From contig OZ025253.1 in assembly GCA_964019135.1 (NCBI GenBank), positions 40,040,548 to 40,104,547 on the forward strand: a DNA stretch of 64,000 bases. The letters are read 5' to 3'. A model generated the notes under the pieces. It was not told the DNA's origin. It was given only the letters and a program-made list of their open reading frames with translations, and ran no database searches. Source of the stretch: Arenicola marina (taxonomy: Eukaryota; Annelida; Polychaeta; Arenicolidae). Both the position numbers and the translations under genes were made by a program. Positions 28,375 through 62,505 of the stretch are shown here, in pieces (the first letter of the stretch is position 1; every line of letters begins with the position of its first letter).

Positions 28375-28775
28375 TTGTTAGGCTCGTGGATTAAGGGTTA
28401 CGGGTCAGGGATTGGGCATTAGGGGTCATCGGTTAGGTATTAGGAGTCAGGAATTGGGGATTAGGGGTTGGAGATGGAGAATTAGGGGTCACCTATACTC
28501 TTACTGATGATGTCTGAGGACCGTTCCAAGTGCTCAACGCGTTATTCTACTCATTCGGGATTAGGGGTCAGGCATTGGGGATTAGGGGTCAGGCATTGGG
28601 GATTAGGGGTCAGGCACTGGTGATTAGGGGTTAAGTATTGGGATTGGGGATTAGGGATCAAGGATTAGGGATTATGGTCATCGGTTAGGTGTTAGAGGTC
28701 AGGCATAGGAGATCAGGGGTCCTGGGATTGGGGATTTTTGGGTCAGATATTAGAGATTAGGGTTCAGGGATTCGG
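28375..28775. repeat. Degenerate GGATTAGGGGTCAGG minisatellite, unit 1
   Basis: Irregular repeats of about 13-19 bp (GGGGATTAGGGGTCAGGCA), related in look to telomeric TTAGGG but not telomeric in regularity. The unit 2 copy is at 46665-47145. Confidence 0.85.
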
Positions 28776-30166
28776 GCTTTTTAACTTTACTTAATTGTTT
28801 GTCATAGCCGAAGTACATGTATCACTGACTTCATTCCAGCACAAGAGACAGCTAATGTACTGTAAGGAACCCAGAATTTCGTGTAGATACCCCAGTATAG
28901 CATAGAGTTTAGTTAACCACAGCGAGTAAGTCACCCCGGGGGCGTAGGACCAGGGTGGACGGGTGGGGAGGTATCTCAAGAGAGGCAGCTACTGGTCGGT
29001 AGGTTTCATGACCGCTGAGCAGCTGGAGGTCGTCTGGTATTTAAGGCGATCTGGATCCAGAACTGCAGGCCGCGTATGTTAGCGCTAGGCTAAGGCGGTC
29101 AACGTGTAGTTTATTTAGGAGGGAGGCTGGTTAAAAGATAGGTTAGACGAACACGTTTTTTTTGTTATATATATTTTTTTATTATATCTAATATTTCATT
29201 ACAGAACAGTACATAATAACGCCACAGTGACGGCACATTTGGAGAAAAAAAATCACATAGCTGTCATGACGTCACAAAGCAAAAAATTGGAAAATAGACA
29301 GACACAAGACACGTACACAGAGAGGTTTGCTCTCCTCAGCTGAACCCTTTCCACATCTCGCTATGGATTTTTAACGTTCGTCGTTGTTTTGCCACCATAA
29401 GTTCTATATTCTTAAAATAAGATATATAATTAAGACAGCCTGAAATGGTTATGATGTTACCCTTATTTCTGCATGAGTGTACATATTGCTTGGCTAACAT
29501 TATTAGAATATTGCTTACTACGAACTGGACGAACACGGTGCACGTGTTGGGATTAGTTTGGCAGTGGGGGTAAACGGGAAGAGGTTTTTAGGGGCATATA
29601 AAGGAGTGTGGGAAGGCGAAGACAGAATGGGCGTGAGGCAAGAGACATGTCAGAATGAGCGGAATAGAACAGACGGGACAGAATGAGCGAGAAACAGACT
29701 ATAGCAGAGGCCACCAAAATATATACGGACTATTAAATGAACCTAAAGAAACGGAAACAACTTGCGATTGCGAAAGGATTACATATAAAGGGATTGCAAT
29801 AACCCGATAAGCGATAAGCCCAATAGTTCTACAGTACTTTCCGTGTTCTAATATAACTTGTTTACTGGACCACAGGTGTGATATTTCTAAAAAAATTGTC
29901 CACTCTGTTACCGTCATATATTGTATATATACAATCGGTATATAGAAACATCATTCGGAACCAGACTTGACTTGCCGGACTCCAAATATGGAGTCTCGTG
30001 ACGTCATTTATCCCTTCCAGACCACTTTTGAATAATAATAGGTGACTAGTATATGTATGAGCAGCTTTAAGCATTTCTATTATATTCTATTATGATGAAC
30101 ATTAATAAAGTAGACGAATTTTCGCTTTATGTGTTAGAAATATATTTTTAATAAGAGAAATGATAA
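28776..30166. other. Intergenic, upstream of ZNFX1 copy A
   Basis: Mostly A/T-rich sequence with no gene seen. The CRE octamer TGACGTCA occurs at 29267-29274 and 29999-30006. It has no obvious counterpart in unit 2 until about 30040/50480. Confidence 0.4.
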
Positions 30167-31120: not shown

Positions 31121-31195
31121 ATGTCGCAGAACCAGCAGATGAATCGCAGACTCGAGCCGCGGCATTCAAGTACACATAAGGGAGGCGTAATCTAG
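31121..31195 (+). CDS. Upstream ORF of ZNFX1 copy A (24 codons)
   Basis: ATG to TAG, coding MSQNQQMNRRLEPRHSSTHK, then GGVI. The stop lies nine bases before the main ATG, in the same frame. The matching frame in copy B is intact with few changes. It may regulate translation, or it may be part of an upstream exon. Confidence 0.45.
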   Translation: MSQNQQMNRRLEPRHSSTHKGGVI

Positions 31196-31204
31196 AACAT
31201 CGTG

Positions 31205-31429
31205 ATGGAAGGGGCAGTGCCTAAATACGGACGTGGGCGTGGTAGACGTGTGGCACAAGAGGGCGGTCGAGACGTGGCACACGAAGACGGTCGAGGCGTG
31301 GCACAGGAACGTGGTCGTGGTGTGGCACACGAGGGCGGTCGAGGCGTGGCACAGGAACATGGTCGAGGCGTGGCACACGAGGGCGGTCAAGGTGTGGCAT
31401 GCGAGGGCGGTCGAGGTGTGGCACACTAG
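31205..31429 (+). CDS. ZNFX1 copy A, N-terminal piece ending at an in-frame TAG
   Basis: It starts with the same MEGAVPKYGRGRGRR as copy B and enters the octapeptide array. After codon 74 a TAG replaces GAG in a ...VAHEGG... unit (31427-31429). The frame reopens at once and continues without further stops to 37246. This may be a real nonsense allele, an early sign of decay, or a sequencing error. Confidence 0.75.
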   Translation: MEGAVPKYGRGRGRRVAQEGGRDVAHEDGRGVAQERGRGVAHEGGRGVAQEHGRGVAHEGGQGVACEGGRGVAH

Positions 31430-31945
31430 GGCGGTCAAGGTGTGGCATGCGAGGGCGGTCGAGGTGTGGCACACGAGGGCGGTCGAGGCGTGGCACACCA
31501 GGGCGGTCGAGGTGTGGCACACGAGGGCGATCGAGGCTTGGCACACGAGGGCGGTCAAGGTGTGGCATGCGAGGGCGGTCGAGGTGTGGCACACGAGGGC
31601 GGTCGAGGCGGGGCACACGAGGGCGGTCGAGGCGTAGCACACGAGGGCGGTCGAGGCGTGGCACACGAGGGCGGTCAAGGCGTGGCACACGAGGGCGGTC
31701 AAGGTGTGGCATGCGAGGGCGGTCGAGGTGTGGCACACGAGGGCGGTCGAGGCGGGGCACACGAGGGCGGTCGAGGCGTAGCACACGAGGGCGGTCGAGG
31801 TGTGGCACACGAGGGCGGTCGAGGCGGGGCACACGAGGGCGGTCAAGGCGTGGCACACGAGGGCGGTCGAGGCGTGGCACACGAGGGCGGTCAAGGCGTG
31901 ACACACGAGGGCGGTCAAGGTGTGGCACACGAGGGCGGTCGTGGT
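31250..31945 (+). repeat. 24-bp coding minisatellite, 29 units (copy A)
   Basis: Twenty-nine units of exactly 24 bp code VAHEGGRG with VACEGGRG, VAQERGRG and GAHEGGRG variants. There are no indels. The other frames are also largely open and give spurious products on both strands. Confidence 0.95.
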
Positions 31946-34900
31946 AGAGGAGCGAGAGACAATTCCCCGAGGGGTACCAATGGCGACAGAGGGGCCTCAG
32001 GCAGCAGAGGGGGCATCGATATTAGAGGGGGCTTTGGCAGCACGGGACGCGCACCAGATGGTGACCGGTCGGGGAGCCGGAGAGAAGGGCATCACCGCCC
32101 CGCCGAACCAATCGACCAGCAATACCTGGAAGCTCTGGCGGAGAAAGATCCCGCGCATATCCTCCTGACGCTCAACTCGGCTTCCTCAGGCTTCACTGAG
32201 CGCATCGGACGCCAATGCACAAACAGCTATGTCAGTAAACTGTTACATGTGATTGCCAAGGCCTGTGCCGTGAGGCTCAGCCTGGGAGATATGAATCAAA
32301 TGCTCATGAGAGTCAACCTCAGCGGCTTCCTGCTGGCGTCCGTCATGCCCTTTGTCACTTCGATGCACATCAGGACAAGAGGGCCGGATACAGAGGCCTG
32401 TTGGGATATTTGTAAACTCGTGCGCAGCCTTCTGCGGTGTATCCCGTCAGCATCCACCGGCAGCGTGACAGCGATTCTTGCCCAGCTCACCAGTCTGACA
32501 AGACTACCCGCCGAGCTTCGGGAAGAGCTTTGCGCCCTGGAGGAGCTGCATGATGACGTGGTGAGGCAGATCCACGGAGGAGACCTCCTCAGAGATGGAG
32601 ATGACGCCGTTGACAAAGGTGGAACAGACCGACCTCCGGATGATTTTAGACGGCTCTCTGTGATCCCCACACCGGAGGACCTCCAGGCGAACGTGGAACC
32701 CTACCTGCCGAAAAACAGGGTGTTTGGTCAATACAAGGACGTCGACGAGTATCTCGACACCCACTTTCGGCTGATGCGGGAAGATGTCATTGAGCCACTG
32801 CGCAACGGTATCAGAGAGTTACTGAGAAACGACAAGAAGTCCTTGAACTCGAAATACATGCAGAATATCAGAGTGTACACAGGAGTTCACGTAGTGATGC
32901 CGCACTGTAGCAGAAACGGGTTACTTATGCGCTTACACTTTGACACGAAATCCTTATCCAAGGTGAATTGGCGAGTGTCGAAGCGGCTTATGTACGGGTC
33001 ATTGGTATGCATTTCTAACGATAGTTTCAAGAGCTTTGTCATTGGCACCGTCTCGAATAGAGACACGGACGACATTATGAACGGCCAAGTAGATGTACAG
33101 TTGGCAGATGTGCAAAACATTGACCCAAACCCTGACATCGAATACGAAATGATTGAGTCCCAAGCTTACTTTGAGGCTTATCGTCATAATTTGGAGGCAT
33201 TGCAAGAGATTGATGATGATAGTCTTCCTTTCCAGCCTTATTTACTGAAGGGGAAGACAGACATGGTGCCTCCAGCATACATGAGAGGACAAGATGTGAG
33301 TTATGATCTCTCACCACTAGTACAGGCTGGCAACCCAGCGAGATTCAAGAAGGTACCAGTGTTGGCCAACAATTCTTGGCCGTCGGCAGATGACATGAAA
33401 TTGGATCAATCCCAATACAAAGCTCTGAAAACTGCGGTTACCAGCGAATTTTCCGCCATCCAAGGGCCCCCGGGCACAGGGAAAACATTCATAGGCTTGA
33501 AGATCATGGAACTCCTATTGCATAACATCGACGCGTGGTCCGGCACGAGGATCGGAAACTGCACGGGTTGTATCTTGGTCATCTGCCGCACGAACCATGC
33601 CCTGGATCAATTTGTGGAGGGCATTCTACAGAAGAATGAAGCGCAGCATACACTTATCAGGGTTGGTGAACAGAGTTCATCAGATAACGAAATTCTTAAA
33701 AAGTGCCTCCTACGAAATGTGAAGAAAAATAGTACAACCCCTGTGGGATTTATAGGTGAGATATTTGGCAATATGCATGGCATCGAGGACAAAATGGCAT
33801 TTTCCCTGACAAAACTGCGATCTCTTCGATCACAGATCATTGATCCGGATTTACTTATGAAAATCATGACACCCAACCATCAGATGTCTATGTTCCGCAG
33901 AAGACAAGACTCCAGGAAAACGTTGTACAAATGGCTGTTTGCAAATACCAAAAGACGCGATTGCAGAAAGGCACAGCGTGGCCAAGACGCGGTGAATATC
34001 AAGAAGATGGCGGAAGACGATATTACGGACCAGGAAGTGGAGAGGATCCAAGCTGACAGGGACATTCTCATTGGAACGGAAGAAAGAGACGACAAAAGGG
34101 AAAAAATCGGAACAAAAACTGAAAACGTCTTGAAAGCGGCATTGGCTGATGACGAGGCCCAATGGGAAAAAGTGTCCGATCATCGGACGGACAAACACGT
34201 GTTTCAAAAGGAGCTCAAAGGGCTTGAACAAATGGACGACCTGGAGGTTTATACCGTGCACAACGTGTGGGCCCTGAACTATGCCGACAGGTGGAGATTG
34301 TACAGGTACTGGGCGGCCGTGCTGCGTGAAGAGATACTGGTCACGATTCAGGCCCTGTGCGATGAGTTCAATGACGCAGCTAAGCGGCTTCGCGAGGCCG
34401 AGGCGGAGACAGACCTCCACGTCATGAGAACGGCGACCATACTGGCCATGACGACCACTGGCGCCGCCAAGTACCGACACATACTGCAGAGGATCAAACC
34501 GCGCATCGTCATTGTCGAAGAGGCGGCCGAGGTGCTCGAGTCGCACGTCATCACCAGCCTCTCCTCAGAATGTCAGCACTTGATTCTCATCGGCGACCCC
34601 CAACAGCTGCGCCCTAACCCGACGGTGTACCGCCTGGCGAAGGAATACCACTTGGATATCTCGCTCTTTGAGCGAATGGTGAAGAACGACCTGAAACGCG
34701 AGCGACTTGTGACTCAACACAGGATGCGCCCAGAAATCGTCAAACTCATCGTTCCACACGTGTATGAATCGCTAGAAAACGACGCGTGCGTTTTGAAATA
34801 CGACCACGTGAGAGGGATCGGTGGGGATGTGTTCTTCGTTAACCACAATGAAGACGAAAACAAAGTGGAAGACACGCGAAGCCACTCCAACTCGCACGAA

Positions 34901-37823
34901 GCCGACTTCTTGGTATCGCTGTGCAAGTACTTGCTTCAGCAGGGTTATGGTCCCGAGGATATCACCATTTTGACAACATACACGGGACAGATGTCTGAAA
35001 TAAGGAAGCAGACTAAGCGATTAGATGCCAGCATGGAAGCGGTGAAAGTGACACCGGTCGACAACTACCAAGGGGAGGAAAACGACATCATTTTGCTGTC
35101 ACTCGTTCGAAGCAACGACGAGGGCAGGATTGGATTCCTCAACATCTCCAACAGAGTCTGCGTGGCACTTTCCCGTGCAAAGAAAGGCTTTTATGCGCTC
35201 GGCAACATGAAGCTGTTACGAGCTGCAAGTAGACTGTGGGATTCTATCTGCAAAGACATCGAGAAGAGCGGCATGCTGGTGGAAAGCATTCCGCTGCAGT
35301 GCCAGTTACATCCTGACACGGTGGTCCAAGCCTCGTGCGCGGCAGACTTCAGCGAGGCGCCCGAGGGAGGATGCACGAGGCCATGCCAGGCGCGCTTAGA
35401 CTGTGGGCACGCTTGTCGACTGCGCTGTCACCCTTGGGATCAAGCACATGAAACATACCAGTGTATGAAACTTTGCGAAAGAACTTTTTCTGGATGTGAC
35501 CATACCTGTGAGAAACTTTGCCACGAAGATTGCGGAAAGTGTCCGGTGAAAGTGAAGAAGATCATGCCGAAATGCGGTCACGAACAGACGATGAAATGCT
35601 CGGTGGCGCCGGAAGAGTTCACTTGTGAAGCCCCGTGTGAAAAGACTCTTGCGTGTGGTCACCTCTGTATCATGTACTGCGGTCAAGACTGCATCACCGA
35701 GAAAATGTGCAACGAGTTTGTTGCAGACCGAAAGTGGCCGTGTGGCCACATTCTGCCCACAGTCTGCCGTAATAATCCAGATAACTTCAAATGTCCAGAA
35801 CCTGTAGAGTGTGTGCTGGACTGCGGCCACATGATTTCAACATTGTGCAGTACGCCCAGGGACGCATTGCGTTGTAAAGAACTGGTGACGACGGCTATGA
35901 AATGCGGCCACAAAGTCACGCTAGAATGTCACGAAATATCTAACTTCAAGTGCGACGTTGAAGTGGAAGTCGAAATGTGCCCTCGTGGATGCAAAGGGAA
36001 CGTACCTTGTCACGACGTGAATGGTTACAGGAAACCCTGTAAAAACATCATATCCAGAGGCTGTGCCAGAAATGACGAACATCAGTTCATGGTCATATGC
36101 CATACGTACGAAAAGGCCAGATGCTCTGCCACATGCCGTCACCCGCTTCCATGTGGACACAGGTGTCAGGGTAAGTGCGGAGAACCGTGCAAGCCTTGCG
36201 GAAACGGCAGTTCCGTATACTGTGGGCACGCACCGTGTCCCAGGCCGTGCGAGGAGTCGTGCTGGCAATGCACATTAGGATGTGGAAACGCCTGTGAACA
36301 CTCGCAATGCACTCGTCGTTGTGATGAGCCGTGTGACCGCAACCCTTGTCAATACCAATGCAAACGTTTGCTCCGATGCGGTCATCGATGTCCCGGGTTT
36401 TGCGGGGAGCTGTGTCCTCGCAGCTGTCGTCAATGCCATTACCGCATCTACCAGCAGATGTACAACAAACTAAAGGTGACACCCGGGCGCAAGGACAAAG
36501 TCGTGGTCGTACAACCGTGTGGTCACGTGATCAGTGCCACGTACATGGACAAGAGAGTCAACCGCTACCTGACGACCACACCGCCCAAGGAGCTCCAACT
36601 CCTGACTTGCCCAATATGTGAGTCACCCGTGTACTACTGTCCACGCTACAAAACTGCTATCCTGTCCAGCGTCAGCGCCTTAGGGGACATCAACAGAGAA
36701 CGTAAGTTCAGGTACCACGCCTTTACAGCGTTGTCATCATGGGGACGCAAGAACAATGAGACTACAAGCGGAATGATCTTGGCGAAGGACTTGATGGAGC
36801 TCACCCAAGGGTCGCACAGCGAAGCGTCTCGACAGTATTACCAAAAGTGCCTTGGATGCTTGTTTCTAACCGCAGCTGCTGAAACAATGAGTCAAAGCAG
36901 GACAAAGATCGCCAAACTCGTGGTGGATGAACTCTCGGATCTTAGTCACAACCGAGATGACATCCGTGTTGAGAAGACGGTTAGTGAAGCAAAGCGTGAC
37001 TTCTTTGTGGCGCATATCAAAGTAATGCTGCAAAGGGTGAAGCGTCCATTGAAACGTGGGGTACTCCTAGACATCATGTTGAGTAGCCGGTCATCATTAT
37101 CAAATGCAAATTCAAGCATCAAGGCACAGTTCCCGGTAGACTTGCGCAACGGAGTAGAAGACTTCATTGAGGAGATGAACAGATACATGACAATCACGGC
37201 GCATACGCACGCGGCAAGGTGGATCGTCTGTGGTAAAGGTGAGTGACAGGAGCCTAATATGATAGAAGTAGTGGCAGAAGTATAGACACTTGCTGCAGTA
37301 TTGACTCACTATGATAGCTCGCCAGATGATAAATGAGCTTAAGGTAACCTTAAAGGTGAATGTCTTCTTTTGCTTCTTGTAAGATCTAAACTTTGATATC
37401 GAAATGGAAGCGAGCGGGATCATCAAAAGTCATTAACATAATGGCTATTGACCAAAGCTTAGTTTGTGTTCCCATATATCATATTTTGAGCCAGTTACTG
37501 GCATTTTACACAGATGGATAAATGCATGGGACCTGGGAACATATTTCGGGCAGTATAATAATTGCCTAAATATCACCATAAACAATCAAGCGGTCATTAC
37601 AGCTCTCAGGCTCTTTCATCAAGGTCACGTGACGTCCGCGGCGAGGGAGGTCTCCTTGGAAACCGCGGCGGGACAGTGTCTCCGCTGCCAGCTTGACGAC
37701 GATGACGATGACATCCGCAATGACGATGTCGATGACGATGACGATGATTACCATTTTTGTTTGAAAACATTCACACACGGGTCGGGCGCCCCCCCCCCCC
37801 CCCTCACAAATTCCTGGATTTGA
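31442..37823 (+). CDS. ZNFX1: ZNFX1-like SF1 helicase with NFX1-type zinc fingers, copy A
   Basis: ZNFX1 is an RNA helicase-like protein, a dsRNA sensor in mammals and a Z-granule protein in C. elegans. Counting from the ATG after the TAG, the order is: octapeptide array to residue 168; Gly/Arg linker; ZNFX1 N-terminal region (YLDTHFRLMREDVIEPLRNG, YFEAYRHNLEALQE); helicase with Walker A GPPGTGKT (675-682), CRTNHALDQF, VEEAAE (1025-1030), GDPQQLRP, QHRMRPE, NYQGEENDIILLSLVRSN and CVALSRAKKG; then an NFX1 cysteine-rich region (GCTRPCQ... to CPRSCRQC). The large exon stays open to TGA at 37246. A good donor (AAAG|GTGAGT, exon end 37238) and acceptor (ATCAAG|GTCACG, 37624) instead give GKGHVTSAAREVSLETAAGQ, then CLRC, an acidic run, and a stop at 37823 inside a foldback fragment. 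Compared with copy B it has lost at least two cysteines and carries the upstream TAG, so it may be decaying. Confidence 0.85.
37239..37623 (+). other. Inferred last intron of ZNFX1 copy A
   Basis: The donor is GTGAGT and the acceptor TTTCATCAAG, giving 385 bases. It is supported by the join CGK|GH, which restores the C-x3-H half of an RZ-type finger. Not proven by a transcript. Confidence 0.55.
37785..37823. mobile_element. Fragment of the G/C-rich foldback element
   Basis: A C run plus AAATTCCTGGAT, as at the right end of 4405-4573. It interrupts the acidic-tail coding region relative to copy B. Confidence 0.55.
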
Positions 37824-39580
37824 CATATAATGGAGCCCTGGCGCAGTGAATCAAAGGCATTTTGGGAGATCATCTCATTTGTACCACCCGCAGTTCTAGC
37901 CCCTACTTTGTGGCGTTGTACCCATGTTGTCATGTAGGGAGGGAGGCATGTCTGGACGCCTGTTCCAACAGTTCCGTGATGGGACTACCGCAGTTCAAGC
38001 TTAATTACCATATATGTGACAGCTCTATAACCTGGATTGCTCACTGACGTTGAAGTGGAAGACCTTTCCATATGCTGCCATGCAATTTCTTGAGCTCGGA
38101 TTTTGTATAGCGGTATTTGATGACGACAACCGTTAATTTACGTGGCACTTAAACGTATCATGTAAATATACCGCGCAACTTGGCATATGTCACCTGCACG
38201 CATACATTATTGTGAATATTATTGTAGGTTGATTCTGTTTGACAAACTTTGTGTATCATGTTATTGAACTGCGAGTCGACTATCGGATTTGGAACGTACT
38301 ATTTCGTTACTTTTCTAACGTCACTTTGGCATTATGACATACATAAGCAAGTCATGCAGTTTGTCAATATTTGTAGAATATTTATGTAATCAGCGATTCA
38401 ATTTGTTCATTTAACTTTTCTTGTTAAAATTTTTTTGTGATCGGTCGTTGTATATGCTATTGAGAATTTTATTTTTCTCTTTGAATATGAAATTATTTGA
38501 TTTATATTGACTGTTCTTGTTGAATTGTAATTATTACTCACTGTATTAGCCCTCGTATTACGTGTTACTGTATTTACATGCAACTTAATAAACTTTAGAC
38601 ATGATGTTACGCGAAAAACATTGTGCATATCTTCGCCGTTCGATGTACATTTGCTGTTATATGCAATGGAAAGCCTGCAATCCTTCCAACGTTTATTTGT
38701 TGAGTGTTGAGGGCTTTAACCGATAACTTTGTAATCTTGTCGTGTGTTAAACATAATAGATCAACCGTTTTCTGGTGTGAAGTTCATTTAGGTTTAATAA
38801 ATGTTCATTTATCGGCATGATAGTCCCAGAATTGTCAGGGGACTATAATATCTGTGTGAAGATGGAAATGTACATTACTGGGGCAATAATACTTAATGTT
38901 ACGTCGCCGACGATGGTGAAGAGTTACGTCCATATACGTTCTTTATATTTACTTATCATACTAAGAAATTGTGTCTGCTCTAGAGGAAGACGTTTCATCA
39001 AGACTGAGCCAACGATTGTGTCACATATAGTAGGTAATCTGCATAATGCCTGCTCTGTTGTTTTGGTTTGCGTGTGTCTTAGCAAACCATAACTTCCTCT
39101 TTTACTGGGTCCATGGATCAAATAGCAACAGTAGAGAAAACATTTTACGCAATAGCTACCACAAGTGGCCAAGCTGGTACTTTGGTGTATGTACGCCGCA
39201 TGCAGGTACAGTACAGAGTTCTCGGGAATCCGTTAAGATATCTGGTCTGCGTTAGATGTACGAAGTTTTCGTAAATATTTGGGCAGCTGTGTAAAACAGC
39301 TGAGCAACTATTGAATTGAGATATTTTGGACGAATCAGTATAACTGACAAATGTTATTCACATTTTTGTTCATGGACATGGTATATATTATATACAAGGT
39401 CTCGATATTAGGCGTGGTCGACATTTCATCATTTATTAAAATTGGTATCGTGTAACAAGATATATCAGAGTGGAGCCTCGTTTTCGGACATATCGATTTC
39501 TTGTTTTCCATCGAAGTTTGGGTTACATGGGGAGTGGCGAGTGAAGTGAGAGTCGGGGAGGGGTGCCTGTAAATGTGGCG
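37824..39580. other. 3' flank of ZNFX1 copy A
   Basis: Paralogous to about 59440-60930. It contains AATAAA-type signals at about 38587 and 38797. No other gene seen. Confidence 0.5.
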
Positions 39581-39584
39581 TCGG

Positions 39585-40437
39585 TGATACACGCTGGCTT
39601 AATGCCACGTCGGTGATGTATGTTGGCATAGTGTCACGCCGGTGATGTACGTTGGCTTAGTGCCGCGTCGGTGATGTACGTTGGCTTAGTGCCACGTCTG
39701 TGATGTACGTTGGCTTAGTGTCACGCCGGTGATGTACGTTGGCTTAGTGCCACGTCGGTGATGTACGTTGGCTTAGTGTCACGCCGGTGATGTACGTTGG
39801 CTTAGTGCCACGTCGGTGATGTATGTTGGCTTAGTGTCACGCCGGTGATGTACGTTGGCTTAGTGCCACGTCGGTGATGTATGTTGGCTTAGTGTCACGC
39901 CGGTGATGTATGTTGGCTTAGTGTCACGTCGGTGATGTACGTTGGCTTAGTGCCACGTCGGTGATGTACGTTGGCTTAGTGCCGCGTCGGTGATGTACGT
40001 TGGCTTAGTGCCGCGTCGGTGATGTACGTTGGCTTAGTGCCACGTCGGTGATGTACGTTGGCTTAGTGCCGCGTCGGTGATGTATGTTGGCTTAGTGTCA
40101 CGCCGGTGATGTACGTTGGCTTAGTGCCACGTCGGTGATGTACGTTGGCTTAGTGCCGCGTCGGTGATGTACGTTGGCTTAGTGCCGCGTCGGTGATGTA
40201 CGTTGGCTTAGTGCCACGTCGGTGATGTACGTTGGCTTAGTGCCACGTCGGGGATGTACGTTGGCTTAGTGCCGCGTCGGTGATGTACGTGGGCTTAGTG
40301 CCGCGTCGGTGATGTACGTTGGCTTAGTGCCGCGTCGGTGATGTACGTTGGCTTAGTGCCACGTCGGTGATGTACCTTGGCTTAGTGCCACGTCGGTGAT
40401 GTACGTTGGCTTAGTGCCGCGTCGGTGATTTACGTTG
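39585..40437 (+). repeat. 29-bp minisatellite, unit 1 (~29 units)
   Basis: The unit is GATGTACGTTGGCTTAGTGC followed by C(A/G)CGTCGGT. A frequent variant here is TCACGCCGGT. The array downstream of copy B is about twice as long. Confidence 0.93.
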
Positions 40438-46664: not shown

Positions 46665-47145
46665 GGGATTAAGAGATACAGGTGAGGGTTTGGGCAGTAG
46701 GGGTAATCGGCTAGGTATTAGGAGTCAGGAATTGGGGATTAGGGGTTAGAGATGAAGGTCTAGGGGTCACCTATGCTCATACTCATGATGTCTGAGGACC
46801 GTTTCAAGTGCTCAACGCGTTATTCTACACATTAAGGATTAGGAGTCAGGCATTGGGGATTAGGGTTTAGACATCAGGGATGAGAGGGCAGGCATTGGAG
46901 ATTAGAGGTCAGGGATTATGGATTATGGTCATCGGTTAGGCATCAGAGGTCAAGCATAGGAGATTAGGGGTCCTGAGATTGAGGATTTTGGGTCAGATAT
47001 TAGGGATTAGGGCTCAGGGATTAGGGGTCAGGAATTAGGGGTCAGGGTTAGGGGTCGGGCATTGGGGATTACGGATGAGGGACTAGGAATTAGAAATCAG
47101 GCATGCGGGATTAGGGATCAGATATTGGAATGAGAGTTAGGAGTT
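46665..47145. repeat. Degenerate GGATTAGGGGTCAGG minisatellite, unit 2
   Basis: As in unit 1, but longer and with different variants (GGGATTAGGGGTCAGGAAT). Confidence 0.85.
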
Positions 47146-50865: not shown

Positions 50866-50940
50866 ATGTTGCAGAACCAGCAGATGAATCGCAGACTCGA
50901 GGCGCGGCATTCAAGTACACATAAAGGAGGCGTAATCTAG
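50866..50940 (+). CDS. Upstream ORF of ZNFX1 copy B (24 codons)
   Basis: Codes MLQNQQMNRRLEARHSSTHK, then GGVI and TAG, nine bases before the main ATG. A second ATG directly before it (50863) could add one codon. Same length and stop as in copy A. Confidence 0.45.
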   Translation: MLQNQQMNRRLEARHSSTHKGGVI

Positions 50941-50949
50941 AACATCGCG

Positions 50950-53900
50950 ATGGAAGGCGCAGTGCCTAAATACGGACGTGGGCGTGGTAGACGTGTGGCA
51001 CACGAGGGCGGTCGAGGCGCGGCACACGAGGGCGGTCGAGACGTGGCACAGAAACGCGGTCGAGGCGTGGCACACGAGGGCGGTCGAGGCGTGTCACACG
51101 AGAGCTGTCGAGGCGTGGCACAGAAACGCAGTCGAGGCGTGGCACGGAAACGTGGTCGAGGTGTGGCGCACGAGGGCGGTCGATGCGTGACACAGGAGGG
51201 CGGTCGAGGCGTGGCACACGAGGGCGATCAAGGCGTGACACACGAGGGCGGTCGAGGCGTGACACACGAGGGCGGTCGAGGCGTGACGCACGAGGGCGGT
51301 CGAGGCGTGACACCGGAGGACGGTCGAGGCGTGACACACGAGGGTGGTCGAGGCGTGACACACGAGAGCGGTGAAGGCGTGGCACACGAAGGCGGTCGAG
51401 GCGTGGCACACGAGGGCGGTCGAGGCGTGACACCGGAGGACGGTCGAGGCGTGGCACACGAGGGCGGTCGACGCGTGACACACGAGGGCGGTCGAGGCTT
51501 GACACAAGAGGGCGGTCGAGGCGTGGCGCATGAGGGCGTTCGAGGCGTGTCACACGAGAGCTGTCGAGGCGTGGCACAGAAACGCGGTCGAGTCGTGGCA
51601 CAGAAACGTGGTCGAGGTGTGGCACACGAGGGCGGTCGAGGCGTGGCACACAAGAGCTGTCAAGGCGTGGCACAGAAACTTGGTCGAGGCGTGGCACAGG
51701 AACGTGGTCCAGACGAGGCACAGAAACGTGGCCGAGGCGTGGCACACGAGGGCGGTCGAGGTGTGACACCCGAAAGCGTTCGAGGCGTGGCAACGGAGGG
51801 CCGTCGAAGCGTGGCACAAGATGTCGTTCGAGGCGTGACACCGGAGGACGGTCGAGGCGTGGCACACGAGGACGGTCGAGGCGTGTCACACGAGGGCTGT
51901 CGAGGTGTGGCGCACGAGGGCGGTCGATGCGTGACACAGGGGGGCGGTCGAGGCGTGGCACACGAGGGCGATCGAGGCGTGACACACGTGGGCGGTCGAG
52001 GCGTGACACACGAGGGCGGTCGAGGCGTGACATACAAGGGCCGTCGAGGCGTGACACCGGAGGACGTTCGAGGCATGACACACGAGGGCGGTCGAGGCGT
52101 GACACCGGAGGACGGTCGAGGCGTGACACACGAAGGCGGTCGAGGCGTGGCACACGAGGGCGGTCGAGGCGTGACTCCGGAGGGCGGTCGAGGCGTGGCA
52201 CACGAGAGCGGTGAAGGCGTGGCACACGAAGGCGGTCGAGGCATGACACACGAGGGCGGTCGAGGCGTGACACCGGAGGACGGTCGAGGCGTGACACACG
52301 AGGGCGGTCGAGGCGTGACACACGAGGGCGGTCGAGGCGTGGCACAAGAGGGTTGTCGAGGCGTGACACCGGAGGGGGGTCGAGGCGTGGCACACGAGAG
52401 CGGTCGAGGCGTGACACACGAGGGCGGTCGAGGCGTGACACCGGAGGACGGTCGAGGCGTGGCACACGAGAGCTGTCGAGGCGTGGCACAGAAACGTGGC
52501 CGAGGCTTGGCACAAGAGGGCGGTCGAGGCGTGGTGCATGAGGGCGTTCGAGGCGTGGCACGCGAGGGCGGTCGAGGCATGTCACACGAGAGCTGTCGAG
52601 GCGTGGCACAGAAACGCGGTCGAGTCGTGGCACAGAAACGTGGTCGAGGTGTGGCACACGAGGGCGGTCGAGGCGTGGCGCACGAGGGCGGTCGAGGCGT
52701 GTCACACAAGAGCTGTCAAGGCGTGGCACAGAAACTTGGTCGAGGCGTGGCACAGGAACGTGGTCCAGACGAGGCACAGAAACGTGGCCGAGGCGTGGCA
52801 CACGAGGGCGGTCGAGGTGTGACACCCGAAAGCGGTCGAGGCGTGGCAACGGAGGGCGGTCGAAGCGTGGCACACGAGGACGGTCGAGGCGTGGCACACG
52901 AGGACGGTCGAGGCGTGGTACAGATACGTGATCGAGGCGTAGCCCACGAGGGCGGTAGAGGCGTGGCACACGAGGGCAGTCGAGGTGTGGCACACGAGGA
53001 CAGTCGAGGTGTGGCCCAGGAACGCGGTCGAGGCGCGGCACACGAGGGCGGTCGAGGCGTGGCGCACGAGGGCGGTCGTGGCGTGTCACACGAGAGCTGT
53101 CGAGGCGTGGCACAGAAACGCGGTCGAGGCGTGGCACAGGAACGTGGTCCAGACGAGGCACAGAAACGTGGCCGAGGCGTGGCACACGAGGGCGGTCGAG
53201 GTGTGACACCCGAAAGCGGTCGAGGCGTGGCAACGGAGGGCCGTCGAGGCGTGGCACACGAGAGCGGTCAAGGCGTGACACACGAGGGCGGTCAAGGTGT
53301 GGCACACGAGGGCGGTCGAGGCGTGGCACACGAGAGCGGTCAAGGCGTGACACACGAGGGCGGTCAAGGTGTGGCACACGCGGGCGGTTGTGGTAGAGGA
53401 GCGAGATACAATTCCCCGAGGGGTACCAATAGCGACAGAGGGGCCTCAGGCCGCAGAGGGGGCGTCGATATTAGAGGGGGCTTTGGCAGCACGGGACGTG
53501 CACCAGATGGTGACCGGTCGGGGAGCGGGAGAGAAAGGCATCACCGCCCCGCCGAACCAATCGACCAGCAATACCTTGAAGCTCTGGCGGAGAAAGATCC
53601 CGCACATATCCTCTTGACGCTCAACTCGGCTTCCTCAGGCTTCACTGAGCGCATCGGACGCCAATGCACAAACAGCTATGTCAGTAAACTGTTACATGTG
53701 ATTGCCAAGGCCTGTGCCGTGAGGCTCAGCCTGGGAGATATGAATCAAATGCTCATGAGAGTCAACCTCAGCGGCTTCCTGCTGGCGTCCGTCATGCCCT
53801 TTGTCACTTCGATGCACATCAGGACAAGAGGGCCGGATACAGAGGCCTGTTGGGATATTTGTAAACTCGTGCGCAGCCTTCTGCGGTGTATCCCGTCAGC

Positions 53901-56900
53901 ATCCACCGGCAGCGTGACAGCGATTCTTGCCCAGCTCACCAGTCTGACAAGACTACCCGCCGAGCTTCGGGAAGAGCTTTGCGCCCTGGAGGAGCTGCAT
54001 GATGACGTGGTGAGGCAGATCCACGGAGGAGACCTCCTCAGAGATGGAGATGACGCCGTTGACAAAGGTGGAACAGACCGACCTCCGGATGATTTTAGAC
54101 GGCTCTCTGTGATCCCCACACCGGAGGACCTCCAGGCGAACGTGGAACCCTACCTGCCGAAAAACAGGGTGTTTGGTCAATACAAGGACGTCGACGAGTA
54201 TCTCGACACCCACTTTCGGCTGATGCGGGAAGATGTCATTGAGCCACTGCGCAACGGTATCAGAGAGTTACTGAGAAACGACAAGAAGTCCTTGAACTCG
54301 AAATACATGCAGAATATCAGAGTGTACACAGGAGTTCACGTAGTGATGCCGCACTGTAGCAGAAACGGGTTACTTATGCGCTTACACTTTGACACGAAAT
54401 CCTTATCCAAGGTGAATTGGCGAGTGTCGAAGCGGCTTATGTACGGGTCATTGGTATGCATTTCTAACGATAGTTTCAAGAGCTTTGTCATTGGCACCGT
54501 CTCGAATAGAGACACGGACGACATTATGAACGGCCAAGTAGATGTACAGTTGGCAGATGTGCAAAACATTGACCCAAACCCTGACATCGAATACGAAATG
54601 ATTGAGTCCCAAGCTTACTTTGAGGCTTATCGTCATAATTTGGAGGCATTGCAAGAGATTGATGATGATAGTCTTCCTTTCCAGCCTTATTTACTGAAGG
54701 GGAAGACAGACATGGTGCCTCCAGCATACATGAGAGGACAAGATGTGAGTTATGATCTCTCACCACTGGTACAGGCTGGCAACCCAGCGAGATTCAAGAA
54801 GGTACCAGTGTTGGCCAACAATTCTTGGCCGTCGGCAGATGATATGAAATTGAATCAATCCCAATACAAAGCTCTGAAAACTGCGGTTACCAGCGAGTTT
54901 TCCGCCATCCAAGGGCCCCCGGGCACAGGGAAAACATTCATAGGCTTGAAGATCGTAGAACTCCTACTGCATAACATCGACGCGTGGTCCGGCACGAGGA
55001 TCGGAAACTGCACGGGTTGTATCTTGGTCATCTGCCACACAAACCATGCACTGGATCAATTTGTGGAGGGCATTCTACAGAAGAATGAAGCGCAGCATAC
55101 ACTTATCAGGGTTGGTCGACAGAGTTCATCAGATAACGAAATTCTTCAAAAGTGCCTCCTACGAAATGTGAAGAAAAATAGTACAATCCCTTTGGACTTT
55201 GAGCGACTTACAGGTCAGATATCCGACCATATGCAGCTCATCGAGAACATAATGGCATGTTCCCTGACAAAACTGCAATCTCTTCGATCACAGATCATTG
55301 ATCCGGATTTACTTATGAAAATCATGACCCCCAACCATCAGATGTCTATGTTCCGCAGAAGACAAGACCCCAGGAAAACGTTGTACAAATGGCTGTTTGC
55401 AAATACCAAAAGACGCGATCGCGGAAAGCCACAGCGTGGCCAAGACGCGGCGAATATCAAGAAGATGGCGGAAGACGATATTACGGATCTGGAAGTGGAG
55501 AGGATCCAAGCTGACAGGGACATTCTCATTGGAACGGTAGAAAGAGACGACAAAAGGGAAAAAATCGGAACAAACACTGAAAACGTCTTGAAAGCGGCGT
55601 TGGCTGATGACGAGGCCCAATGGGAAAGAGTGTCCGATCATCGGACGGACAAACACGTGTTTCAAAAGGAGCTCAAAGGGCTTGAACAAATGGACGACCT
55701 GGAGGTTTATAATGTGCACAACGTGTGGGCCCTGAACTATGCCGACAGGTGGAGATTGTACAGGTACTGGGCGGCCGTGCTGCGTGAAGAGTTGCTGGTC
55801 AGGATTCAGGCCCTGGGCGAGGAGTTCAATGACGAAGCTAAGCTGCTTCGCGAGGCCGAGGCGGAGACAGACCTCCACGTCATGAGAAAGGCGACCATAC
55901 TGGCCATGACGACCACTGGCGCCTCCAAGTACCGACACATCCTGCAGCGGATCAAACCGCGCATCGTCATTGTCGAAGAGGCGGCCGAGGTGCTCGAGTC
56001 GCACGTCATCACCAGCCTCTCCTCAGAATGTCAGCACTTGATTCTCATCGGCGACCACCAACAGCTGCGCCCTAACCCGACGGTGTACCGCCTGGCGAAG
56101 GAATACCACTTGGATATCTCGCTCTTTGAGCGAATGGTGAAGAACGACCTGCAATGCGAGCGACTTTTGACTCAACACAGGATGCGCCCAGAAATCGTCA
56201 AACTCATCGTTCCACACGTGTATAAATCGCTAGAAAACGACGCGTGCGTTTTGAAATACGACCACGTGAGAGGGATCGGTGGGGATGTGTTCTTCGTCAA
56301 CCACAATAAAGACGAAAACAAAGTGGAAGACACGCGAAGCCGCTCCAACTCGCACGAAGCCGACCTCTTGGTATCGCTGTGCAAGTACTTGCTCCAGCAG
56401 GGTTATGGTCCCGAGGATATCACCATTTTGACAACATACACGGGACAGATGTCTGAAATAGAGAAGACGATTAAGCGATTAGATGCCAGCATGGAAGCGG
56501 TGAAAGTGACACCGGTCGACAACTACCAAGGGGAGGAAAACGACATCATTTTGCTGTCACTCGTTCGAAGCAACGACGAGGGCAGGATTGGATTCCTCAA
56601 CATCTCCAACAGAGTCTGCGTGGCACTTTCCCGTGCAAAGAAAGGCTTTTATGCGCTCGGCAACATGAAGCTGTTACGAGCTGCAAGTAGACTGTGGGAT
56701 TCTATCTGCAAAGACATCGAGAAGAGCGGCATGCTGGTGGAAAGCATTCCGCTGCAGTGCCAGTTACATCCTGACACGGTGGTCCAAGCCTCGTGCGCGG
56801 CAGACTTCAGCGAGGCGCCCGAGGGAGGATGCACGAGGCCATGCGAGGCGCGCTTAGACTGTGGACACGCTTGTCGACTGCGCTGTCACCCTTGGGATCA

Positions 56901-59279
56901 AGCACATGAAACATACCAATGTATGAAACTTTGCGAAAGATCTTTTTCTGGATGTGACCATACCTGTGAGAAACTTTGCCACGAAGATTGCGGAAAGTGT
57001 CCGGTGAAAGTGAAGAAGATCATGCCGAAATGCGGTCACGAACAGACGATGAAATGCTCGGTGGAGCCTAAAGAGTTTACTTGCCAAGTACCGTGTGAAA
57101 AGACCCTTGCATGTGGTCACCTCTGTACCATGTACTGCGGTCAAGACTGCATCACCGAAGAAATGTGCGACGAAGTTGTTGCAGACCGAAAGTGGCCGTG
57201 TGGCCACATTCTGCCCACAGTCTGCCGTAATAATCCAGATAACTTCAAATGTCCAGAACCTGTAGAGTGTGTGCTGGACTGCGGCCACATGATTTCAACA
57301 TTGTGCAGTACGCCCAGGGACGCATTGCGTTGTAAAGAACTGGTGACGACGGCTATGAAATGTGGCCACAAAGCCACGCTAGAATGTCACGAAATATGTA
57401 ACTTCAGGTGCGACGTTGAAGTGGAAGTCGAAATGTGCCCTCGTGGATGCAAAGGGAAAGTACCTTGTCACGACGTGAATGGTTACAGGAAACCTTGTAA
57501 AAACAGCATCCCCAAAGTCTGTGCCAGAAATGACGAACATCAGTTCATGGTCATATGCCATACTTACGAAAAGGCCAGATGCTCTGCCACATGCCGTCAC
57601 CCGCTTCCATGTGGACACAGGTGTCAGGGTAAGTGCGGAGAACCTTGCAAGCCTTGCGGAAACTGCAGTTCCGTATACTGTGGGCACGCACCGTGTCCTA
57701 GGCCGTGCGAGGAGTCGTGCTGGCAATGCACATTAGGATGTGGAAACGCCTGTGAACACTCGCAATGCACTCGTCGTTGTGATGAGCCGTGTGACCGCAA
57801 CCCTTGTCAATACCAATGCAAACGTTTGCTCCGATGCGGTCATCGATGTCCCGGGTTTTGCGGGGAGCTGTGTCCTCGCAGCTGTCGTCAATGTCATTAT
57901 CGCATCTACCGACAGATGTACAACAAACTAAAGGTGACACCCGGGCGCAAGGACAAAGTCGTGGTCGTACAACCGTGTGGTCACGTGATCAGTGCCACGT
58001 ATATGGACAAGAGAGTCAACCGCTACCTGACGACCACACCGCCCAAGGAGCTCCAACTCCTGACTTGTCCAATATGTGAGTCACCCGTGTACTACTGTCC
58101 ACGCTACAAAAATGCTATTCTGTCCAGCGTCAGCGCCTTAGGGGACATCAGCAGAGAACTTAAGTTCAGGTACCACGCCTTTACAGCGTTGTCATCATGG
58201 GGACGCAAGTACAATGAGACTACAAGCGGAATGATCCTAGCGAAGGACTTGATGGAGCTCATCCAAGGGTCGCAGAATGAAGCGTCTCGACAGTATTACC
58301 AAAAGTGCCTTGGATGCTTATTTCTAACCGCAGCTGCTGAAACACTGAGTCAAAGCAGGACAAAGAACGCCGAAAGCGTGGTGGATGAACTCTCGGATCT
58401 TAGTCACAACCGAGATGACATCCGTGTTGAGAAGACGGTTAGTGAAGCAAAGCGTGACTTCTTTGTGGCGCATATCAAAGTAATGCTGCAAAGAGTGAAG
58501 CGTCCATTGAAACGTCGGGTACTCCTAGACATCATGTTGAGTCGCCGGTCATCGTTATCAAATGCTAATGCAAGCATCAAGGCACAGTTTCCGGTACACT
58601 TGCGCAACGGAGTAGAAGACTTCATTGAGGAGATGAACAGATACATGACAATCACGGCGCATACGCACGCGGCAAGGTGGATCGTCTGTGGTAAAGGTGA
58701 GTGACAGGGGCCTAAGATAATAGAAATATTTGCAGAAGTATAGACACATGCTGCAGTATTGACTCACTATGATAGCTCGCCAGATAGTAAATAAGCTTAA
58801 GGTAACCTTAAGGTGAATGTCTTCTTTTGCTTCATGTATGAACTACACTTTGATATCGAAATGGAAGCGAGAGGGATCATCAAACGTCATCACACTAATG
58901 ACGATTGACCAAAGCTTAGTTTGTGTTCCTATATATCATATTTTGAGCCAGTTATTAAATTACTGGCATTTTACACAGATGGATAAATGCATGGGACCTG
59001 GAAACATATTCCAGGCTGTATAATGATTGCCTAAATATCACCATAAACAATTAATCGGTCCTTAAAGCTCTCGCGATCTTTCATTAAGGTCACGTGACGT
59101 CCGCGGCGATGGAGGTCTCCTTGGAAACAACGGCGGGACAGTGTCTCCGCTGTCACCTTGACGACGATGACATCCGCGATGACGATGATGATGACGATGA
59201 CGATGACATCCGCGATGACGATGACGATGATGATGACGATGACATCCGTAATGACGATGACCTTGATTTAGAAGCATGA
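50950..59279 (+). CDS. ZNFX1: ZNFX1-like SF1 helicase with 100-unit octapeptide repeat, copy B
   Basis: The main exon is open for 2584 codons from an ATG in good context (GCGATGG). Order: MEGAVPKYGRGRGRR; octapeptide array, residues 16-815; Gly/Arg linker; ZNFX1 N-terminal region from about 870; helicase with GPPGTGKT (1322-1329), CHTNHALDQF, VEEAAE (1675-1680), GDHQQLRP (1701-1708), QHRMRPE, NYQGEENDI and CVALSRAKKG (about 1890); NFX1-type cysteine-rich fingers about 1959-2315; helical C-terminal part. It is longer than human ZNFX1 (about 1,900 residues) because of the array. Reading through gives ...WIVCGKGE and stop at 58704. Splicing AAAG|GTGAGT (exon end 58696) to TTAAG|GTCACG (59089) gives ...CGKGHVTSAAMEVSLETTAG, then QCLRC and an Asp-rich tail, 2645 residues in all. 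The helicase motifs are intact. Likely an RNA-binding antiviral or granule protein, by family. Confidence 0.9.
50995..53394 (+). repeat. 24-bp coding minisatellite, exactly 100 units (copy B)
   Basis: One hundred units of 24 bp with no indel. Consensus VAHEGGRG; common variants VTHEGGRG, VTPEDGRG, VAQKRGRG, VSHESCRG, VAQERGPD and VATEGRRS. Blocks recur: the VAQERGPD unit occurs at 51691, 52747 and 53131, that is 44 and 16 units apart. An 803-codon frame on the minus strand and others are by-products of the period. Confidence 0.96.
58697..59088 (+). other. Inferred last intron of ZNFX1 copy B
   Basis: The donor is GTGAGT and the acceptor TTTCATTAAG, giving 392 bases, in the same position and phase as in copy A. 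Confidence 0.55.
59158..59265 (+). repeat. GATGAC repeat coding an acidic tail
   Basis: (GATGAC)n interrupted by ATCCGC/ATCCGT codes runs of Asp broken by Ile-Arg. It is longer in copy B than in copy A (37695-37750). Confidence 0.8.
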
Positions 59280-60939: not shown

Positions 60940-62505
60940 GGCGTCAGTTATGTCGGTGATGTACTTTGGTTTAGTGCGGCGTCGGTGATGTACGTTAGCT
61001 TGTTGCCACGTCGGTGATATACGTTGGCTTAGTGCCACGTCGGTGATGTACGTTGGCTTAGTGCCGCGTCAGTGGTGTACGTTGGCTTAGTGCCGCGTCG
61101 GTGCTGTACGTTGGCTTAGTGCCGCGTCGGTGATGTACGTTGGCTTGGTGCCACCTCAGTGATGTACGTTGGCTTGTTGCCGCGTCGGTGATGTACGTTG
61201 GCTTAGTGCCGCGTCGGTGATGTACGTTGGCTTGTTGCCGCGTCAGTGATGTACGTTGGCTTAGTGCCGCGTCAGTGGTGTACGTTGGCTTCGTGCCGCG
61301 TCGGTGATGTACGTCAGCTTAGTGCCGCGTCGGTGATATACGTTGGCTTGGTGCCGCGTCAGTGATGTACGTTGGCTTGTTGCCGCGTCGGTGATGTACG
61401 TTGGCTTAGTGCCGCGTCGGTGATGTACGTTGGCTTGTTGCCGCGTCAGTGATGTACGTTGGCTTGTTGCCGCGTCGGTAATGTACGTTGGCTTAGTGCC
61501 GCGTCGGTGATATACGTTGGCTTGTTGCCGCGTCGGTGATGTACGTTGGCTTAGTGCCGCGTCGGTGATGTACGTTGGCTTGTTGCCGCGTCAGTGATAT
61601 ACGTTGGCTTGTTGCCGCGTCGGTGATGTACGTTGGCTTAGTGCCGCGTCGGTGATGTACGTTGACTTAGTGCCGCGTCGGTGATATACGTTGGCTTGTT
61701 GCCGCGTCGGTGATGTACGTTGGCTTAGTGCCGCGTCGGTGATGTACGTCAGCTTGTTGCCGCGTCAGTGATGTACGTTGGCTTAGTGCCGCGTCGGTGA
61801 TGTACGTTGGCTTAGTGCCACGTCGGTGATGTACGTTGGCTTAGTGCCGCGTCGGTGATGTACGCTGGCTTAGTGCCGCGTCGGTGATGTACGTTGGCTT
61901 AGTGTCACGCCGGTGATGTACGTTGGCTTAGTGCCACGTCGGTGATGTACGTTGGCTTAGTGCCGCGTCGGTGATGTACGTTGGCTTAGTGCCGCGTCGG
62001 TGATGTACGTTGGCTTAGTGCCACGTCGGTGATGTACGTTGACTTAGTGCCGCGTCGGTGATGTACGTTGGCTTAGTGCCACGTCGGTGATGTACGTTGG
62101 CTTAGTGCCACGTCGGTGATGTACGTTGGCTTAGTGCCACGTCGGTGATGTACGTTGGCTTAGTGCCACGTCGGTGATGTACGTTGGCTTAGTGCCACGT
62201 CAGTGGTGTACGTTGGCTTAGTGCCGCGTCGGTGATTTACGTTGGCTTAGTGCCACGTCGGTGATGTACGTTGGCTTAGTGCCGCGTCGGTGATGTATGT
62301 TGGCTTAGTGCCGCGTCGGTGATGTACGTTGGCTTAGTGCCACGTCAGTGATGTACATTGGCTTGTTTCCGCGTCGGTGATATACTTTGGCTTGGTGCCA
62401 AGTCGGTGATGTACGTTGGCTTAGTGCCGCGTTGCTGGTATATGTTGGCTTGTTGCCGCGTCAGTGATGGACATTAGCTTAAAGCCGCGTTGATGATATA
62501 CGTTG
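60940..62505 (+). repeat. 29-bp minisatellite, unit 2 (~54 units)
   Basis: Same unit as 39585-40437, but with its own variants: many units read GGCTTGTTGCCGCGTC, and GTCAGTGATG replaces GTCGGTGATG. The right third (about 61780-62340) resembles the unit 1 array more closely. Confidence 0.93.

Follow-up and report, generated by a model that had tools for sequence, protein, structure and literature searches.

A ZNFX1-type helicase gene of Arenicola marina with one hundred tandem octapeptide units in frame: a possible RG arm

Introduction

Coding minisatellites are a known general class of repeats, and the ZNFX1 helicases are a known protein family. The new feature described here is a predicted tandem-repeat RG arm placed before such a helicase in the polychaete Arenicola marina. 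A literature search over titles and abstract openings found no report of a tandem-repeat arm on ZNFX1.

ZNFX1 is reported to bind foreign RNA (PMC11959080, PMC12585102), and C. elegans ZNFX-1 to act in inherited silencing (PMC9276528). Works cited in PMC13196369 attribute to ZNFX1, in their titles, the clustering of single-stranded RNA and assembly into polymers; its E3-ligase is the topic of others cited there. The ARM-type N-terminal domain is named for human ZNFX1 and is reported as lacking in the grouper protein, for which an N-terminal disordered region is predicted (PMC12585102). A term search of the C. elegans ZNFX-1 paper PMC9276528 returned no mention of disordered, N-terminal or RGG.

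Disordered arms with RG pairs stand beside RNA-binding or helicase cores in Vasa/DDX4, PGL-3 and nucleolin. In PGL-3, RGG repeats are described as augmenting condensation beside oligomerising folded domains, more in cis than in trans (PMC13121748). By the rule of PMC9633708, which takes at least three RG separated by at most 15 residues, the 50 longest RG/RGG domains reported for C. elegans span 21 to 321 aa. Motifs bearing Phe or Tyr are reported in nematode granule proteins. In a human survey, RG-motif proteins that have nucleic-acid annotation and are predicted to phase-separate are richer in RGG triplets, and those with neither property in RG duplets, although some well-studied motifs are largely RG duplets (PMC12502372).

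The array of A. marina is like other coding minisatellites in its unit length, a multiple of three, in its block duplications and in the copy-number difference between paralogues; it differs in sitting before a ZNFX1 helicase. Against the solved ZNFX1 chains (PDB 9q9z and 9eve), the gene has the same ARM-type domain, ZNFX1 domain and SF1 helicase core over ~1,170 aligned residues, and a disordered N-terminal leader is what PMC12585102 also reports for the grouper. Here, however, the leader takes up ~850 aa with 100 octapeptides, the NFX1 fingers appear only as Cys-rich repeats and no RZ finger was found in the window. Compared with Vasa/DDX4, PGL-3 and nucleolin, the predicted arm is built of strict 8-residue tandem units without RGG in the array, is nearly charge-balanced and has no Phe and one Tyr.

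Results

The window, that is the whole 64-kb stretch of DNA analysed, holds two neighbouring copies of the gene, of which copy B carries the longer array. Its features are as follows.

50950..50994, plus strand: copy B start codon and leader MEGAVPKYGRGRGRR, 15 codons (translation)
50995..53394, plus strand: array B, made up of 100 units (24 bp each) with the consensus VAHEGGRG, stop-free over 800 codons (unit parse, TRF)
53395..53559, plus strand: RG-rich unique tail with 5 RG, from the array to the ARM-type domain and overlapping the domain start (sequence)
53545..58696, plus strand: ZNFX1 body of copy B with ARM-type domain, ZNFX1 domain, AAA_11, AAA_12 and Cys-rich NFX1-like region (Pfam; PDB 9q9z, 9eve)
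53615..54767, plus strand: B copy of an identical 1,153-bp tract, partner in copy A at 32166-33318 (sequence comparison)
58697..58704, plus strand: intron side of a splice donor, AAAG/GTGAGT, overlapping the apparent stop codon (pattern, 6/6 match)

By its sequence, copy B is firmly supported as a ZNFX1-type SF1 RNA helicase gene. The frame is open from the ATG at 50950 to 58704 (2,584 aa in the ORF translation), and array B is in frame with a ZNFX1 body of ~1,770 codons. The family membership rests on three parts. The ZNFX1 domain PF25396 is matched in Pfam at residues 1120-1221 with E 4.4e-31 (E 2.3e-31 in copy A), and the SF1 core by AAA_11 (E 3.6e-29) and AAA_12 (E 1.8e-41), both of which are present in both copies. 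The ARM-type domain is assigned by sequence, with residues 9-160 of 9eve matching query 858-1004 (E 3.8e-6) and 9q9z aligning from query 866.

The 9q9z chain matches residues 866-2037 with E 2.6e-250, its alignment running through QGPPGTGKT and VEEAAE. The original prediction of a ZNFX1-like helicase behind the array is borne out by Pfam and by both PDB chains. Its NFX1 fingers fare less evenly: Cys-rich CGH repeats that resemble them follow the helicase in the translation, but no Pfam finger model reports them.

The two ZNFX1 frames both end with WIVCGKG at a perfect GTGAGT donor, the exon ends being 58696 (B) and 37238 (A). The donor at 58697 is the only 6/6 match among the 304 GT sites from 53400 to 58710. 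As it overlaps the apparent stop codon, the visible stop is probably intronic and the coding sequence probably continues in a later exon.

The donor boundaries 37238/37239 and 58696/58697 cut the apparent start of an RZ finger, which by the RZ layout of the family would be expected to begin in the exon after WIVCGKG. Pattern searches of 37.2-51.0 kb and 58.65-64 kb, which a split exon would escape, found no RZ exon, and Pfam gave no RZ match in the last 100 residues of copy B. At the other end of the gene, a short upstream frame (MNRRLE..HKGGVI, 50884-50940 and 31139-31195) is common to both copies and ends just 5′ of the ZNFX1 ATG as a possible uORF.

Array B is far beyond chance. It consists of 100 contiguous, gap-free 24-bp units, 63 of them distinct, and is counted by TRF as 99.8 copies, so that the predicted 100 tandem octapeptides of 800 residues are there at 50995-53394, in frame with the ATG at 50950. 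A meaning of the number as exactly 100 was rejected, the count depending on the inclusion of the diverged last unit. The commonest residues are V at position 1 (90%), R at position 7 (87%) and G at position 8 (89%), and positions 2, 3 and 5 vary most.

An RG pair had been claimed for every unit, which does not hold: it is found in 84 of the 100 B units and 20 of the 29 A units. The B units end in RG in 79 cases and have 94 RG in total, since 10 units have two. Array B has 60 GRG triplets and no RGG, two RGG being present in leader, array and tail together. With a net +25 across its 800 residues it is close to charge-balanced, and it has 58 His, 83 Glu, no Phe and a single Tyr. By the PMC9633708 rule, residues 10-767 of copy B make up one RG/RGG domain of 758 aa with 95 RG, against the maximum of 321 aa reported there for C. 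elegans, and residues 816-844 a second stretch with 5 RG.

AlphaFold2 gave residues 1-415 of copy B a mean pLDDT of 35.7 and a pTM of 0.15, where the single-sequence input itself lowers confidence. Leader and array B together had no matches in PDB and NCBIfam. Array B contains block copies, units 27-34 being 97.9% identical to units 71-78 and units 70-77 96.9% identical to units 86-93. In part at least, then, the array grew by duplication of blocks of as many as eight whole units, a way of growing that keeps the frame automatically.

Copy A lies upstream with the following features.

31205..31249, plus strand: start codon and leader of copy A (translation)
31250..31945, plus strand: array A, made up of 29 units (24 bp each), 18 of them distinct (unit parse, TRF)
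31427..31429, plus strand: TAG stop within unit 8 of array A, in frame (translation)
31946..37246, plus strand: open ZNFX1 body of copy A, which compared with B has lost 3 aa and shows two Cys differences within the Cys-rich region (Pfam, alignment)

Array A, at 31250-31945, has the 29 units predicted for it. It holds 21 RG and 3 RGG, and 20 of its 29 units end in RG. The frame from the ATG at 31205 ends at the TAG at 31427-31429, a stop on which the original prediction is silent. The leaders of the two copies are identical at 44 of 45 bases, and the array ends have related units in both copies, for example one that ends in RD close to the start and VTHEGGQG close to the end. From this common leader and these common ends, the array predates the A/B duplication. 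Three unit haplotypes are common to both arrays and cover 8 of the 29 A units.

The bodies of A and B differ by a dS of 0.043 and a dN of 0.024 (ratio 0.56) over 1,766 codons. In 200-codon blocks, dN/dS goes from no difference up to slightly above 1, and the synonymous-nonsynonymous contrast has a Fisher P of 0.001 on rounded counts. The 1,153-bp identity begins 220 bp beyond the array and, in copies otherwise ~3.5% different, is probably a recent gene conversion. In the 3′ flank, six of seven 250-column blocks (A 37437 to ~38940) are 90-94% identical and one is 72%. A short, strongly diverged A/B patch lies at 33737-33820 and 55186-55278 with a 9-base length difference, where conversion from a further paralogue is possible.

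Copy A also has a diverged patch with its 3-aa deletion, across which B alone can be aligned to 9q9z. Among the alignment rows listed, one copy alone agrees with 9q9z at 9 residues, A at 7 and B at 2, as judged by eye. A long-dead pseudogene was rejected for copy A, which keeps the 9q9z residue at the larger number of sites. Its in-frame stop and 3-aa deletion, like the two Cys differences, are suggestive of recent decay. Its body, where judged, has changed no faster than that of B despite the array stop.

Tandem arrays are abundant in the window, with 62 TRF rows, many of them overlapping. Two non-coding arrays served as controls.

39579..40437, no strand: non-coding 29-bp array 3′ of copy A, 29.6 units (TRF)
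60952..62505, no strand: non-coding 29-bp array 3′ of copy B, 53.6 units (TRF)

These paired arrays lie ~2 kb 3′ of each gene and are free of indels over 83 units in total. Degenerate TTAGGG-like 21-bp arrays are also present upstream of each copy (28398-28776 and 46830-47121). A retroelement fragment at 23705-24301 has an integrase zinc-binding domain above the cut-off and a reverse transcriptase just below it. It was the one clear Pfam match among twenty other open frames of the window, the rest being below the curated cut-offs.

Relatives were sought in prokaryotic and viral collections, for which reason these searches say little. The ZNFX1 body had 17 pattern matches in the prokaryotic contigs, none confirmed by tblastn, and no pattern match in the viral contigs; the degenerate repeat pattern had 0 stretches in both collections.

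The stop codons of the arrays were compared with two expectations. Array B has none against 1.34 expected by column shuffling (P 0.03) and 3.0 expected when the inferred changes are placed at random (P 0.033), both P values being uncorrected; the latter test used the 66 changes, of 97 steps in total, on tree edges of at most two steps. Array A has one against 1.39 (shuffling) or 0.8 (random placement), and A and B on one tree have one against 3.2 (P 0.135). The stop avoidance in array B is marginal.

The other signals of selection on the array are weak as well. Unit variants show no synonymous excess, with 15 synonymous changes in B against 19.8 expected (P(S>=obs) 0.95), 7 in A against 6.6, and 22 in A and B together against 29.1. 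The RG codons are not clearly spared, at 11.0 and 12.2 inferred events against 9.9-18.2 at the six other codons.

Neither coding array has a net length change, in agreement with the earlier claim that both lack frame-changing indels. Arrays A and B together have 0 net indels for 343 substitutions, the eight insertion or deletion marks of array B forming four compensating pairs that were treated as alignment artefacts. The comparison covers six non-coding arrays of the window, with neighbouring marks merged into events by hand. Their indel to substitution counts are 3:48 (36-bp), 0:38 and 0:100 (29-bp), 2:35 (25-bp), 2:42 (20-bp) and ~6:41 (39-bp). The one-base-longer units expected in the 36-bp array (7571-9497) are there as one-base insertions at 7647, 8440 and 8585.

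Pooled, the non-coding arrays give 13:304 against the coding 0:343 (Fisher P 6e-5, on events that are not independent). This contrast supports the argument of the original prediction that the missing indels speak for a kept frame. The argument is weakened by the two 29-bp arrays, which are also indel-free among the six and show that an array can stay without indels where it codes for nothing.

Translation of the array in copy B finds its best support in the anatomy of the locus. The frame is open through all 800 array codons into the ARM-type domain. Between the array and that domain (from ~53545) neither copy has an in-frame ATG; the first ones after the array, at 53740 (B) and 32291 (A), are inside the domain. 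Nor is there a pyrimidine-rich acceptor: the AGs from array to domain are preceded by at most 47% (B) or 42% (A) pyrimidines over 19 bases, a crude measure that uses no splice model.

An intact B protein would therefore need a start at 50950 or at one of the in-array ATGs at 52075, 52243 and 52579 (units 46, 53 and 67), and a shorter arm from one of the latter is possible. Openness alone is cheap for a stop-poor 24-bp unit, as one minus-strand frame is also open across the whole of array B (803 aa from a GTG, 834 codons from stop to stop). Judged from the sequence, copy B most likely has its array translated; the further claim of a kept frame is countered by the in-frame TAG of copy A.

Discussion

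We favour, with a confidence that falls somewhat short of an even chance, the reading that a coding minisatellite has enlarged a disordered leader into an RG arm, whose weak multivalent RNA and protein contacts, in cis to the helicase, would aid RNA clustering or granule entry. The N-terminal leader, disordered in ZNFX1 proteins, would have hosted the 24-bp minisatellite, and block duplication of whole units would have brought it to 100 copies. The product would be a disordered arm of ~800 residues with ~95 RG pairs, offering a weak multivalent contact surface for RNA and protein.

Tethered in cis to a helicase that binds RNA and self-assembles, the arm may strengthen RNA clustering or granule entry, and arginine methylation with Tudor-type readers could tune it. 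Beyond the computed array, frame, ZNFX1 identity by sequence, unit-block growth and want of a predicted fold for residues 1-415, we infer that the arm is translated and touches RNA or partners, as well as any function that it may have. An RNA or condensate role would fit the published ZNFX1 biology. The exact length of the arm is probably not selected.

Several observations speak against a functional arm. The absence of RGG from array B, read with the human RG survey (PMC12502372), counts against an RNA-binding arm. The lack of synonymous excess, the RG codons that are not clearly spared, the stop in array A, the balanced charge and the few aromatics point the same way. A tolerated minisatellite is nearly as likely as a functional RG arm: the array would be translated, its sequence and length would be neutral and the 24-bp unit would expand harmlessly in a disordered leader. 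The wealth of tandem arrays in the window fits this account, as do the unit haplotypes common to A and B, the lack of synonymous excess and the lack of RGG in array B. The non-coding 29-bp array is likewise longer at B than at A, so coding sequence is not alone in having expanded at B. Against neutrality stand the absence of stops from array B and the fewer indels per substitution of the coding arrays than of the pooled non-coding ones; these speak weakly for openness, at least, being of importance, which neutrality also allows.

That the array is absent from the mature protein, through a downstream start or by splicing, with the open frame a by-product of a stop-poor unit, we regard as unlikely. 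The open minus-strand frame, donor-like sites in the array that score 4 of 6 and the open copy A body, with its 9q9z residues kept in spite of the array stop, would suit it. It is opposed by the want of an in-frame ATG and of a pyrimidine-rich AG between array and ARM-type domain in both copies, by leaders that differ at just 1 of 45 bases, and by the loss of the beginning of the ARM-type domain that a start at 53740 would entail. Less likely again is a special case of the RG-arm reading, in which symmetrically dimethylated RG would recruit Tudor or LOTUS-Tudor proteins to germ granules. The analogy is with LOTR-1, which is linked to C. elegans ZNFX-1, and with the N-terminal third of that helicase (PMC9200344; see also the review PMC11959080). 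LOTR-1 is described as associating with granules mainly via its Tudor domain, and the GRG triplets of array B would suit such readers; however, two of the four aromatic cage residues of LOTR-1 are reported as replaced (PMC9200344). Highly improbable is an element acting as folded RNA or G-rich DNA instead of protein. Array B does have a G-rich strand, whose 2.4 kb contain 148 overlapping G4-like matches with two-G runs, as against 15 for the 5.3 kb of the body, but it has no three-G-run match, its first 10 units show no better folding than shuffled sequences (z -0.56) and the window has no Rfam match at gathering scores. A tRNA search found none.

Within the favoured RG-arm reading, the repeat number might further be a fast-evolving, tunable dial, in which the gain or loss of units between paralogues or individuals would alter valency and hence the gathering of foreign or transposon RNA into ZNFX1 particles or germ granules. 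We consider this extension doubtful, at about the level of the Tudor-type readers.

If the array is neutral or untranslated, the locus would clearly exemplify a disordered leader that tolerates a coding minisatellite. If it is translated, a ZNFX1 helicase would carry an RG domain exceeding twice the length of the longest one reported for C. elegans (PMC9633708). The neighbouring copies with 29 and 100 units are a natural length comparison, by which it becomes testable whether RG valency sets the strength of RNA gathering by ZNFX1.
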